A DNA stretch of 64,000 nt from Pandoraea sp. (GTDB lineage: Bacteria > Pseudomonadota > Gammaproteobacteria > Burkholderiales > Burkholderiaceae). Position numbers and translations under genes: made by a program. The DNA lies in the NCBI RefSeq assembly GCF_004297875.1, contig NZ_SCSK01000067.1, positions 124,001 to 188,000 of the forward strand, given 5' to 3'. Positions 2,556 to 9,803 of the stretch are shown piece after piece; the first letter of the stretch is position 1, and each line of letters begins with the position of its first letter. The notes beneath the pieces were generated by a model. That model worked only from the letters and a program-made list of their open reading frames with translations. It ran no database searches and had not been told where the DNA came from.

Positions 2556-2584
2556 TTGACTCAAATCATTTCCGATATTATTAT
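2556..2584 (+). promoter_or_regulatory. Sigma70-like promoter of the marR(ectR)-ectABCD operon
   Basis: TTGACT (2556-2561), 17-bp spacer, TATTAT (2579-2584), in an AT-rich intergenic region. Confidence 0.65.
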
Positions 2585-2609
2585 TTCAGTACAAATTAAT
2601 TTATCGGAA
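2570..2609. promoter_or_regulatory. 40-bp dyad operator candidate: TTCCGATA-N5-ATTT-N6-AAAT-N5-TATCGGAA
   Basis: Concentric inverted repeats, both centred at 2589.5, overlapping the -10 box and predicted start site. Confidence 0.6.
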
Positions 2610-2628: not shown

Positions 2629-3168
2629 ATGACAACGCCATCAACCAGCAGCCAGCCGTACGATTTGCGCATCCTGCGCGCACTGCGCCGCATCACGAGA
2701 TCGATTGCCCTGCATTCCCGGCAGTTGGCCGCCTGCAGCAACATTACGGCACCCCAATTGATTTGTCTGCGCGCTGTAATCGATCACGGCCCGTTGACCG
2801 CGACCGCGATCAGTCGGGAAATTCATGTCAGCGCCAGCACGGTGGTAGGCATTCTCGATCGCTTGGAAGACAAGGGGCTGATTCGCCGCGAGCGCGGACG
2901 CGAAGACCGACGGATCGTCTTTGTGTCGGCGACCGAGGCCGGCTTCAAACTAGCCAGCGAGACGCCCGCACCGATGCAGAAAAAGCTCTCGGAGGCGCTC
3001 AATGCATTACCCGAACTGGAACAGGCCACGATCACGATGGCGCTTGAGCGCGTTGTCGATCTGATCGAGTCGGGCGGTGTCTCCGCGGAATCGGCAAGTG
3101 AGCCCGCTCCACCGATTCTCGATGTACCTACGGGCGATGTGCCCCCCGAATCAGGATTGGTGGTTTGA
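2629..3168 (+). CDS. ectR: MarR family transcriptional regulator, candidate EctR
   Basis: MarR winged-helix pattern (LTATAISREIHVSASTVVGILDRLEDKGLIRRERGREDRRIVFVSATEAG); directly upstream of and overlapping ectA. Confidence 0.75.
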   Translation: MTTPSTSSQPYDLRILRALRRITRSIALHSRQLAACSNITAPQLICLRAVIDHGPLTATAISREIHVSASTVVGILDRLEDKGLIRRERGREDRRIVFVSATEAGFKLASETPAPMQKKLSEALNALPELEQATITMALERVVDLIESGGVSAESASEPAPPILDVPTGDVPPESGLVV

Positions 3169-3749
3169 TAGATAAAGACGGCGCTTACCCCAGCGAAAAT
3201 TCCAGGAGTCGCTTGGCCGTTCAAGATAAGCCCGGCTTATCCTTGAGGACACCCGATAGGCGCGATGGCGCGCAAATACATCGTTTGATCGAGCAGTGCC
3301 CACCGCTCGATCTGAATTCGCAGTACGCCTATCTTCTGCTGTGCGAGCATTTTTCGCCTACCTGCGTGCTGGCTCAAGCGGACCACCAGGTGCTCGGTTT
3401 CATCTCGGCCTATATGCCGCCGGCGCAGGCCGACGTGCTGTTCATCTGGCAAGTCGCGGTTCATCCGCAGGCACGCGGCCGTGGGCTCGGTCTGAGCATG
3501 CTGCAGACTTTGCTGCGACGACCGCATCTGAGTCACATTCAATTCATCGAAACAACGGTCAGCCCGCAGAACCAGGCCTCGCGGGGCCTTTTCGCGGCGT
3601 TGGCCACTGCATTGCAGGCCTCGATCCAAGAGCTGCCGCTGTTTGATCGTCATCTGTTTGCCGGCCACGGTCATGATGACGAACCGCTGCTGCGTATCGG
3701 CCCGTTCCAAGCCAGCCGGGTTTGGGCTCGGACAGACTGCGCGGCTTAA
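3165..3749 (+). CDS. ectA: L-2,4-diaminobutyric acid acetyltransferase EctA (non-ATG start; 3165 or 3213)
   Basis: GNAT protein LRTPDRRDGAQIHRLIEQCPPLDLNSQYAYLLLCEHF, typical EctA; followed by ectB, ectC and ectD. Confidence 0.93.
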   Translation: MIDKDGAYPSENSRSRLAVQDKPGLSLRTPDRRDGAQIHRLIEQCPPLDLNSQYAYLLLCEHFSPTCVLAQADHQVLGFISAYMPPAQADVLFIWQVAVHPQARGRGLGLSMLQTLLRRPHLSHIQFIETTVSPQNQASRGLFAALATALQASIQELPLFDRHLFAGHGHDDEPLLRIGPFQASRVWARTDCAA

Positions 3750-3825: not shown

Positions 3826-5133
3826 ATGGACTTAAAAATATTTGACCGAATGGAGTCGGAGGTGCGTGGCTACGTTCGGTCGTTCCCGGTGATTTTCAAG
3901 CAGGCCAGGGGTTCCGTGCTGATCGATGAAGTCAATAACGAATACATCGATTTTTTCAGCGGCGCCGGAACGCTCAACTACGGCCATAACAATCCGATTC
4001 TGAAAAAACGTCTGATCGAGTACTTGAATACCGATGGCCTGGTGCACGGGCTGGATATGGCGACATGCGCCAAAAAGCACTTTCTCGAGACGGTGGAGCG
4101 GGTGCTGCTCAAACCGCGCAACTGGCAATACACGCTGCAATTCACGGGCCCGACGGGCACCAACGCGGTGGAAGCAGCACTGAAGCTGGCGCGTCAGGTC
4201 AAGGGCCGCCAAAACGTCATCTCCTTTACTCACGGATTTCACGGCGTGACTGGCGGGTCGCTGGCTGTTACGGCCAACGCCAAGTTCCGCGGCGCTGCGG
4301 GGGTCGGGCTGGCCAACACAACTTTCATGCCGTTCGACGGCTATCTCGGCACCGACGTCAATACCATGGCTTATCTCGAGCGCATGCTGGACGACCCGAG
4401 CAGCGGTCTGGATCATCCGGCTGCAGTGATCGTCGAGACGGTGCAGGGCGAGGGTGGCGTGAACGTTGCCAGCAAGCGCTGGCTCAAGGAACTCGAGCGT
4501 TTGTGTCATCAGCACGACATGCTGTTGATCGTCGACGACATTCAGGTCGGCTGCGGACGCACCGGCAACTTCTTCAGCTTCGAGGTCGCCGGCATCAAGC
4601 CCGACATCATTACGCTGTCGAAATCGCTGTCCGGTTTTGGCCTGCCGATGTCGCTGGTGCTGATGAAGCCAGAGCTCGACGTGTGGAAGCCGGGCGCGCA
4701 CAGCGGGACATTCCGCGGCAACAACATGGCATTCGTCACCGCAGCGCAGGCGCTCGACACCTATTGGACGGATGGCACATTTGCCGATGAAACCGCGCGC
4801 AAGGAGCGCCTGGTGCGCGACTGGCTGGAGAATTTGGTTCATAGCTATCCCGGCGCGGGTTTGAGCGTGCGCGGCCGGGGGTTGATTCAAGGCCTCGCGA
4901 CCTCGGGGCGCAACGACATGGCAAATCGGATCGCGCGCGAGGCGTTCAGGCACGGCGTCGTGATCGAGACCTCCGGCGCCAACGACGAAGTTCTCAAAAT
5001 TCTGCCGGCGTTGACCATCGAGGACGACCTGCTCAAACGCGGGCTCGAAGTCATCGAGCAAAGTGTCGCGCACGTGCTGGCCAGCCAAGGCGCCGGCGCC
5101 CATGTCTTCAAATTCGGAGGGAACAAGCGATGA
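3826..5133 (+). CDS. ectB: Diaminobutyrate-2-oxoglutarate transaminase EctB
   Basis: MDLKIFDRMESEVRGYVRSFPVIFKQARGSVLIDE..., PLP aminotransferase with LIVDDIQVGCGRTGNFFSFE. Confidence 0.96.
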   Translation: MDLKIFDRMESEVRGYVRSFPVIFKQARGSVLIDEVNNEYIDFFSGAGTLNYGHNNPILKKRLIEYLNTDGLVHGLDMATCAKKHFLETVERVLLKPRNWQYTLQFTGPTGTNAVEAALKLARQVKGRQNVISFTHGFHGVTGGSLAVTANAKFRGAAGVGLANTTFMPFDGYLGTDVNTMAYLERMLDDPSSGLDHPAAVIVETVQGEGGVNVASKRWLKELERLCHQHDMLLIVDDIQVGCGRTGNFFSFEVAGIKPDIITLSKSLSGFGLPMSLVLMKPELDVWKPGAHSGTFRGNNMAFVTAAQALDTYWTDGTFADETARKERLVRDWLENLVHSYPGAGLSVRGRGLIQGLATSGRNDMANRIAREAFRHGVVIETSGANDEVLKILPALTIEDDLLKRGLEVIEQSVAHVLASQGAGAHVFKFGGNKR

Positions 5134-5528
5134 TCGTGAAAAATGTCAATGACGTGATCGGCACCAAGGACGAGATCAAGACCGATAACTGGCTGAGCCG
5201 ACGGGTGCTGCTCAAACAGGACGGCATGGGATTCTCCTTTCACGAGACCGTGATTTTTCCCGGGACCGAGACGCATATCCATTATCAGAACCATCTCGAG
5301 GCAGTCTGGTGCATCGAGGGTGACGGCGAAGTCGAAACCATTGCGGACGGAAAGAAATATGCACTGGGCCCAGGGGTCGTCTATGCGCTGAATGAAAATG
5401 ACGATCACTGGCTGCGCGGAGGAAAGGAGCCCTTGCGGGTGATTTGCGTTTTCAACCCGCCCTTGACTGGTCGGGAAGTGCACGATGCCGACGGCGTCTA
5501 TCCGATCGAGCAGCCTCAGGCCGCCTGA
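5130..5528 (+). CDS. ectC: L-ectoine synthase EctC
   Basis: MIVKNVNDVIGTKDEIKTDNWLSRRVLLKQDGMGFSFHET...HIHYQNHLEAVWCIEGDGEVE; cupin. Confidence 0.97.
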   Translation: MIVKNVNDVIGTKDEIKTDNWLSRRVLLKQDGMGFSFHETVIFPGTETHIHYQNHLEAVWCIEGDGEVETIADGKKYALGPGVVYALNENDDHWLRGGKEPLRVICVFNPPLTGREVHDADGVYPIEQPQAA

Positions 5529-5546: not shown

Positions 5547-6473
5547 ATGATTATATCGGTAAGCGATTTATACGCTTCTCGCACGACAGATGGCACTTCG
5601 GCCATCATTGCCCGGCAGGATCCGGTCGTCTATGACGGCGGACGCTATGCCGACGCACTGACTCAGGCGCAGTTGGCCGGCTATGAGCGAGACGGCTTCA
5701 TTTTGCTGGAAAATGTGTTCGACGACGCCGAGGTTCAGGTGTTGCTCGATGAAGTCAAGCGCATGAGCGCCGCGAAGGACATTGTCTCGCGCGACGAGGC
5801 GATTACCGAGCCGGGCAGCAACGCGGTGCGCTCGATTTTCCGGGTGCATGAACTCAGCGAGAAGCTGGGCCGGCTGGCGCGTGATCCGCGCCTGATTCAC
5901 GTCGCGCGCCAAATTCTGGGCTCGGAAGTCTATATGCATCAATCGCGCGCCAATATGAAACCCGGCTTCAAAGGCAAGGAGTTTTATTGGCACTCGGATT
6001 TCGAGACGTGGCATATCGAAGACGGCATGCCGGCCATGCGCGCGTTGAGCTGCTCGGTCCTGTTGACCGACAACAATGCCTGCAACGGCCCACTGATGCT
6101 GATTCCCGGATCGCAGCAGCAATTCATCGCCTGCCAGGGGCGTACGCCCGAGAACCACTATAAGCAATCGCTCAAGAAGCAGGAGTATGGCGTGCCCGAT
6201 CCGCTCAGCCTGAATCTGCTGGCGGAGCAGGGCGGCATTCAGGCAATGACGGCCAAGGCTGGCTCAGTCGTGTTTTTCGATTGCAACACGATGCATGGTT
6301 CGAACGGCAATATTTCGCCGTGGCCCCGCGCGAACGTGTTCATGGTCTACAACAGTGTCGAAAATACATTGGAGCCGCCGAAGCATGGGCTCGATCCGCG
6401 CCCCGAATACATTGCGGCACGCCGGAACTTCGCCGCCCTGGCGCCAATCGAGCAAGTCGCCATGGTGGCGTAA
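5547..6473 (+). CDS. ectD: Ectoine 5-hydroxylase EctD, Fe(II)/2-oxoglutarate dioxygenase
   Basis: Signature FYWHSDFETWHIEDGMPAMR plus distal DCNTMHGS iron-ligand motif. Confidence 0.96.
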   Translation: MIISVSDLYASRTTDGTSAIIARQDPVVYDGGRYADALTQAQLAGYERDGFILLENVFDDAEVQVLLDEVKRMSAAKDIVSRDEAITEPGSNAVRSIFRVHELSEKLGRLARDPRLIHVARQILGSEVYMHQSRANMKPGFKGKEFYWHSDFETWHIEDGMPAMRALSCSVLLTDNNACNGPLMLIPGSQQQFIACQGRTPENHYKQSLKKQEYGVPDPLSLNLLAEQGGIQAMTAKAGSVVFFDCNTMHGSNGNISPWPRANVFMVYNSVENTLEPPKHGLDPRPEYIAARRNFAALAPIEQVAMVA

Positions 6474-6585: not shown

Positions 6586-7358
<773 letters not shown>

Positions 7359-7362
<4 letters not shown>

Positions 7363-8735: not shown

Positions 8736-9593
8736 TTACTTGGTGCACAGTTGTGCCGTGGTCTTGTCAAAGGACGCCTGGGCATCCTTGTCGGTGAAGC
8801 CATAGTGCTTCATCAACTGCTTCCAGCCAGGGGTTTTCTTGAATTGAGCCAATTGGGTGTTGACGGCGTTGCGCAGATCCGTCGAATTCTGCGCGAAGGC
8901 GAAGCCCCCCCAACTGCGTGCCGGCTGACCGTGAACGATTGGATCAGTAAAGGGCTTGGCGGCTTGCACCTTGCCGCTCTTGGCCGCCAGCTGATTCACC
9001 GTCAGACCCGTTGCAGCATAGGCGCTGGCGCGGCCGGTCGTTACCGTTGAGATGGCATCGGCGTTGCTCGCGATAGTCACGATATTGCTGCTGGGCACGC
9101 CCAGTGCCTGAAGCATGTCGAGCTGATCGGCGCCCGCCATGATCGCGACCTTCTTGCCCGATTTGGCGAACGCTTCATACGAATCAAGATGAGCCGGATT
9201 GCCTTTGGCGACCAGCAAGCCCTCGCCATAGGAGCTGTCCGGCTCCGAGAACAGCACCTTTTCGCAGCGCGGCGGCAGGATCGCCATTTCCGCCGCAACC
9301 ATATCGAAACGGTTGGCTTTCAGACCGGGGATCAACGAGCCGAAGCCAGTGACGACCCATTTGATTTTCTTCACGCCGAGCTGCTTCATCACCTGCTTGG
9401 CAACGTCGGGGCCGATGCCTTTGGCTTGCTCGGACAGGTTCATGTAGCCGTATGGAATTTCATTGGCGATGGCGATGCGCACATAACCGCGCTGCTGGAT
9501 TTCCTTGAGCGTGACTGCGCCGGCTTGCTGTGCCAACCCGGTCGCCAAGGCGACGAATACCGTGGCGAGGGCTGTTGTGCGGGCCTTTTTCAT
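8736..9593 (-). CDS. ehuB: Ectoine/hydroxyectoine ABC transporter substrate-binding protein EhuB
   Basis: Signal peptide plus family-3 solute-binding protein; start MKKARTTALATV chosen because AAAGGA lies 7 nt upstream (rather than 9599). Confidence 0.87.
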   Translation of the reverse strand: MKKARTTALATVFVALATGLAQQAGAVTLKEIQQRGYVRIAIANEIPYGYMNLSEQAKGIGPDVAKQVMKQLGVKKIKWVVTGFGSLIPGLKANRFDMVAAEMAILPPRCEKVLFSEPDSSYGEGLLVAKGNPAHLDSYEAFAKSGKKVAIMAGADQLDMLQALGVPSSNIVTIASNADAISTVTTGRASAYAATGLTVNQLAAKSGKVQAAKPFTDPIVHGQPARSWGGFAFAQNSTDLRNAVNTQLAQFKKTPGWKQLMKHYGFTDKDAQASFDKTTAQLCTK

Positions 9594-9671
9594 AAGCATG
9601 TCCTTTGGGGAAAAATTGACCGAAATGACTTCCGCGCTTATTTGATTCGTCTAGCAACGATAGCAGAAATA

Positions 9672-9707
9672 ATTATACACAATGAAACGATTTCAGTTGA
9701 AATTAAT
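9672..9707 (-). promoter_or_regulatory. Promoter/operator candidate of ehuBCDA with ATTTCAGTTGAAATTAAT element
   Basis: TATAAT on the minus strand (9672-9677) with weak -35 (TTCAAC, 18-bp spacer) embedded in ATTTCAGTTGAAATTAAT (9690-9707), which contains the perfect palindrome ATTTCAGTTGAAAT. Confidence 0.6.
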
Positions 9708-9803
9708 AGCGTACCGAATCAACTCGGCGCCGCCTATCCCGGGAAAACTATCCGGCAGTCGCCCGACCGCCTGTGCGACGGCTTCGGCGATTACAATATC
9801 GGC

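Follow-up and report, generated by a model that had tools for sequence, protein, structure and literature searches.

The window, by which we mean the whole 64-kb stretch of Pandoraea sp. DNA that was analysed, carries the genes marR, ectA, ectB, ectC and ectD in this order, followed by a convergent ectoine-uptake operon, ehuBCDA. The plus-strand operon begins with a gene that encodes a MarR-family regulator (2629-3168), which was assigned to the EctR type based on profile and structure matches and a tree. It is followed on the same strand by ectA (3165-3749; TIGR02406, 198.8 bits), whose start codon, TTG, overlaps the stop codon of marR, ectB (3829-5133; TIGR02407, 644 bits), ectC (5130-5528; NF009806) and ectD (5547-6473; TIGR02408, 450 bits). 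On the minus strand, the uptake operon runs from ehuB, its first gene (8736-9599; TIGR02995 family match, 282 bits), to ehuA, its last (6586-7362; TIGR03005, 404 bits). The clustering of marR with ectABCD, including the overlap of marR and ectA, is kept in the relatives.

A promoter scan of positions 2380-2760 returned TTGACT-17-TATTAT as the sole sigma-70-like match, and both the -35 hexamer TTGACT (2556-2561) and the -10 hexamer TATTAT (2579-2584), on the plus strand and separated by a 17-bp spacer, were found exactly where an earlier note on this DNA had placed them. This distance is fixed in the relatives: TTGAC stands exactly 17 bp ahead of the TATsAT of the operator motif described below in 37 of the 57 non-redundant sequences, compared to about 1/57 at other positions. 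The -10 hexamer, which is also supported by the column conservation, lies inside the left half of the predicted operator; motif and -10 box of the TTGAC-17-TATsAT promoter are fused. The -35 region (TAGCAGTTTGACTCAAATCATTTC, 2549-2572), at a distance of 30 bp upstream from the main site, scored 9.1 on the operator PWM and may double as a weak operator site. In the predicted marR leader (2592-2628, approximately 37 nt), no clear Shine-Dalgarno sequence was seen ahead of the ATG at 2629.

The predicted operator at the ect promoter

The operator motif was derived from 96 marR upstream regions, and its column conservation was calculated from 57 non-redundant sequences. The 24-bp motif TATsATTTsAgTAGAAATcAATTT was matched by the PWM in 88 of the 96 regions, and its columns reach up to 1.9 bits. 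In the window, it corresponds to TATTATTTCAGTACAAATTAATTT on the plus strand (2579-2602), which has its dyad centre at 2589.5 and scored 32.0 bits, whereas a random sequence of 4.42 Mb that matched the window in dinucleotide composition reached at most 13.9. Both the conservation and the score of this inner dyad are far beyond chance. The motif was also found upstream of marR in other phyla, including loci that have no ectA (L121, L126, L129 and L135). With offsets counted from the centre, the symmetry of the motif holds at 4-7 and 9 and is absent at 13-19. For the dyad in the window, a repeat search reported 17-bp arms that were 76% complementary.

The inner arms ATTT (2583-2586) and AAAT (2593-2596), which the earlier note had centred at 2589.5, were confirmed in the sequence. 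The 8-2-8 core that it had proposed on them, ATTTCAGT-AC-AAATTAAT, is centred at 2591.5 rather than 2589.5 and is 2 bp out of register with the dyad; the sequence and the symmetry profile instead give TTATTTCA-GT-ACAAATTA (2581-2598, plus strand) as the in-register pseudo-palindrome. The proposed likeness to EctR1 therefore had the wrong register, but it stands in kind, as an A/T-rich 8-2-8 operator that overlaps the -10 box matches the published descriptions (PMC5924519, PMC3979721). Two A/T-rich 8-bp half-sites with a 2-bp spacer are present and their dyad centre is conserved. The predicted site overlaps the -10 box, and the gene that comes first behind this promoter encodes a MarR regulator; this arrangement, which the earlier note had also pointed out, is seen in the window and conserved across the marR-ectA loci. 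We regard the predicted operator as real and as ordinary in kind.

The 15-bp register of AATsATT elements

The conservation profile contained four blocks of the AATsATT type in 15-bp steps, at 2564-2570, 2579-2585, 2594-2600 and 2609-2615 on the plus strand. Elements 2 and 3 lie within the main operator. Element 1 (AATCATT), one 15-bp step ahead of element 2, has a half-site score within the top 0.1% of the window, and an AATsATT-like 7-mer was present at its register in 25 of 57 sequences, compared to at most three at any other upstream position. As a part of the promoter spacer, it is also subject to other constraints. The register of element 4 (ATTTTCC) is conserved in the relatives and weak here, its half-site score in the window being not significant. 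A relative's promoter in which all four elements are present is that of L036. Downstream, the 7-mer counts were 12 and 10 at 2608/2609 and at most eight at any other position.

A flank-only scan, which used only the bases outside the 24-bp core and had 25 possible offsets per side, gave the same register. Of 56 sequences, 29 had their best downstream half-site precisely at +15 and 24 their best upstream half-site precisely at -15, against about two expected on either side, although the relatives are non-independent samples and binomial p-values overstate the significance of such counts. In the ehu promoters, whose promoter context differs from that of ect, -15 was the best non-core offset (mean 5.38/7 versus a background of 2.85 +/- 0.74). 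Moreover, two overlapping strong sites that are 15 bp apart were found in L048/L128 and in L050/L131. Inspection by eye showed a TATTAT-like hexamer approximately one 15-bp step upstream in L032, L080, L083, L086, L088 and L119, which indicates that the array and the -10 box may also be combined in a different phase.

These data have to be weighed against a simpler model in which EctR binds 2579-2602 only, as a single dimer, and the flanking elements are spacer or A/T-rich leftovers that do not bind. Most of the information is carried by the core alone, element 4 is not significant in the window, and a single 8-2-8 pseudo-palindrome has been published as the operator of EctR (PMC5924519). However, the exact 15-bp register on both sides, its recurrence in the ehu promoters with their different context and the loci that bear two overlapping strong sites all speak against such a model, and we consider it rather unlikely. 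The sequences of the relatives are best read as arrays of overlapping dimer sites and not as concentric dyads. Because AATsATT is nearly self-complementary, one element can serve two neighbouring dimers, and since 15 bp corresponds to approximately 1.4 helical turns, neighbouring dimers would be expected on approximately opposite sides of the helix. We found no description of a 15-bp operator architecture with overlapping dimers for the EctR family in the literature that was searched.

A similar arrangement may exist in other bacteria. In the gammaproteobacterial ect loci L155, L160, L161, L162, L167 and L168, which have a divergent MarR gene, there are tandem palindromes of the TTTAGTG/TACTAAA type that are 14 or 16 bp apart. 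While the step is 15 bp in the array described here, the second gammaproteobacterial site is 14 bp away in L160, L162, L161 and L167 and 16 bp away in L155 and L168, distances that were partly read by eye. These tandem palindromes are possibly a parallel array.

The regulator, its relatives and the second site at ehuB

The regulator was matched by MarR-family models and by solved MarR structures (best 2rdp, 4e-14), which places it in the MarR superfamily; because no curated equivalog cut-off was reached, it has no named NCBIfam subfamily. Two congeners (G025 and G029) encode the regulator with 97-98% identity, and no close copy was found in the other congeners that were examined. The next relatives share 65-82% identity, and the named ones among them belong to the Alcaligenaceae. 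In the tree, the regulator is nested among these relatives (node support of 100), while its host belongs to another family, and this pattern suggests that the locus was acquired by transfer into a small Pandoraea clade, with loss in the other congeners as the alternative. The regulator was placed as sister to ect-linked gammaproteobacterial MarR proteins (SH-aLRT 91 and 89, with several long branches) in a set that also comprised seven paralogues and other MarR proteins and no named EctR1 sequence. It is likely a member of the EctR subgroup, the sister relation being moderately supported.

Earlier studies describe EctR as a repressor of the MarR superfamily whose A/T-rich operator is made up of two 8-bp half-sites around a 2-bp spacer and overlaps the -10 box; the EctR of Methylomicrobium alcaliphilum controls its own gene, and ectR is carried by alpha- and betaproteobacterial ectoine producers (PMC5924519, PMC3979721). 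The locus studied here resembles those of EctR/EctR1 in M. alcaliphilum and Methylophaga in that a MarR gene lies beside the ect genes and an A/T-rich 8-2-8 pseudo-palindrome lies on the -10 box. Unlike in those bacteria, marR heads the ect operon and is not divergent from it. The identity of the regulator to the ect-linked MarR proteins of the gammaproteobacteria is only 30-40%, and the half-site is TnATTTsA here, whereas it is of the TTTAGTG type (TTTAGTG/TACTATA) at the gammaproteobacterial ect loci. The EctR-type proteins of the Alcaligenaceae (Bordetella, Achromobacter, Pusillimonas and Castellaniella) are closer, with 65-82% identity, the same marR-ectA order and the same operator motif on the -10 box. 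Their promoters differ in that the downstream element 4 is often better and the outer arms discussed below are absent.

Among the more distant relatives, the marR genes of L117, L123 and L125 (approximately 3001 to 3440-3490; Myxococcota, SAR324 and other MAGs) adjoin genes for a proVW-type glycine betaine/proline transporter and not ectA, and dyads similar to ours occur near some of them. Because of these neighbours, the wider family looks like a regulator of compatible solutes.

A second predicted operator, which was missed by the earlier note along with the 15-bp array (the main site was recognised), was found on the plus strand at 9686-9709 (AACGATTTCAGTTGAAATTAATAG), approximately 87 bp upstream of the ehuB start. 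Its PWM score of 24.8 bits is lower than that of the ect site and well above the random maximum. The site recurs at the same place in both congeners (29.2 bits) and in six further Burkholderiales genomes. Predicted operators are thus present both at ect, for synthesis, and at ehu, for osmoprotectant transport, and these two promoters of one locus hold the two top-scoring sites of the host genome in a pattern search that allowed three mismatches and which weaker sites may escape. Among the sampled Burkholderiales genomes, the ehuB site was present in seven of the 11 that have both the EctR type and ehuB, being absent in the other four, and in none of the seven that have ehuB without the EctR type (Fisher p = 0.013).

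Other matches were rejected. A third site, in L139 (1499-1522, score 19.2), precedes a gene for a GlcD-like oxidase, but its congener copy scored only 11.4 and lies beside a different dyad. The scores of L138, L143 and the other pattern matches fell inside the random range. Conserved intergenic palindromes, one of which resembles the EctR motif, occur upstream of this gene for a GlcD-like FAD-linked oxidase in the host (L139) and in G025 (L182); they probably belong to another regulator.

The L139 site, a further MarR-like site of moderate score in the genome, could be taken to mean that the conserved operator is bound by some other regulator, such as a global osmotic or salt regulator, and not by the adjacent MarR protein. 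We consider this highly unlikely because the motif tracks the MarR type at ehuB, precedes marR in other phyla even where ectA is absent and has the 8-2-8 dyad geometry that is typical of MarR sites. In Vibrio, the MarR regulator CosR, which is 51% identical to EctR1, represses ectABC-asp together with osmoprotectant transport genes (PMC7876524). Its possible likeness to the system studied here would be that of a MarR protein acting on ectoine synthesis and transport genes; it was drawn from the description of CosR and concerns predicted operators on our side.

The outer arms and the proposed regulation

The earlier note had described the site as a 40-bp concentric dyad, and its outer arms are indeed present as described: TTCCGATA at 2570-2577 and TATCGGAA at 2602-2609 (both plus strand) share the centre 2589.5. 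If the whole dyad were the site, a second dimer or some larger complex would make contact with the outer arms. The exact 8-bp arms have a probability of approximately 3e-4 when the core is fixed and the flanks are shuffled, and they are retained in one of the two congeners (L003). However, concentric dyads with 8-bp and 4-bp arms are not rare in 64 kb, with 12 placements at six centres in the window, one of which is a terminator-like hairpin at approximately 554, and 2.4 +/- 1.7 placements in first-order Markov sequence. Hence, the geometry by itself is weak evidence. In the other congener, G025 (L004), the left arm reads TTTCTAAC and only four of the eight pairs are left, even though this congener retains the -35 hexamer, the core and the right flank. 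Across 56 relatives, the pairing of the outer arms at offsets 13-20 was 2.14/8 per sequence compared to 2.37/8 in a cross-sequence flank shuffle, and the GAA of the right arm, which is not conserved as an arm, is accounted for by the conserved half-site of element 4. The conservation of the dyad across marR-ectA upstream regions with their flanks kept, which the earlier note had proposed as a check, thus holds for the inner core and fails for the outer arms. Without such conservation, the concentric double-dimer geometry is unsupported; we give it very little probability, and chance is the most likely origin of the outer arms. A role of the dyad in the leader RNA, as a hairpin, an attenuator or a terminator, which an inverted repeat close to the start site might bring to mind, is very unlikely given the geometry, as the dyad spans the -10 box and its right half alone would be transcribed, and neither a terminator-like site in the promoter-region scan nor conservation of the would-be stem arms was found.

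With a probability of roughly 0.78, we propose that the site serves as operator for the EctR-type MarR repressor encoded next to it, which would autoregulate ectR-ectABCD, co-repress ehu and act on an operator that is extended in 15-bp steps. An EctR dimer on the conserved dyad (2581-2598, within the motif at 2579-2602) would sit over the predicted start site as well as the -10 box and block initiation at the ectR-ectABCD promoter, so that EctR would repress its own gene along with ectoine and hydroxyectoine synthesis. The same protein on the second copy at 9686-9709 would repress the ehuBCDA operon, and synthesis and uptake would then be released together, presumably at high osmolarity. We infer binding, repression, co-occupancy and the osmotic signal from sequence. 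Because a published ectR mutant was still osmotically inducible, osmosensing cannot be attributed to EctR alone (PMC5924519); work on this regulator has been limited to a few methylotrophs (PMC5924519). With AATsATT every 15 bp, the right half of one dimer site would be the left half of the next, and dimers on roughly opposite faces could allow co-occupancy and graded repression. More tentatively, EctR-type MarR proteins might form a cooperative row of overlapping dimers on this repeat, the occupancy of which would set a graded, jointly tuned level of synthesis and uptake; this is a possibility that we hold with some doubt.

The biology of EctR is already known, while the predicted operator sequence, the proposed extension of the regulon to ehu and the putative array architecture are new. 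The site also illustrates that a long and conspicuous palindrome can be misleading if selection acts on its core only. A conserved, quantitative operator model for a large betaproteobacterial branch makes the regulon, which comprises both synthesis and uptake, predictable, and the 15-bp array offers a concrete possible reason for a graded response.
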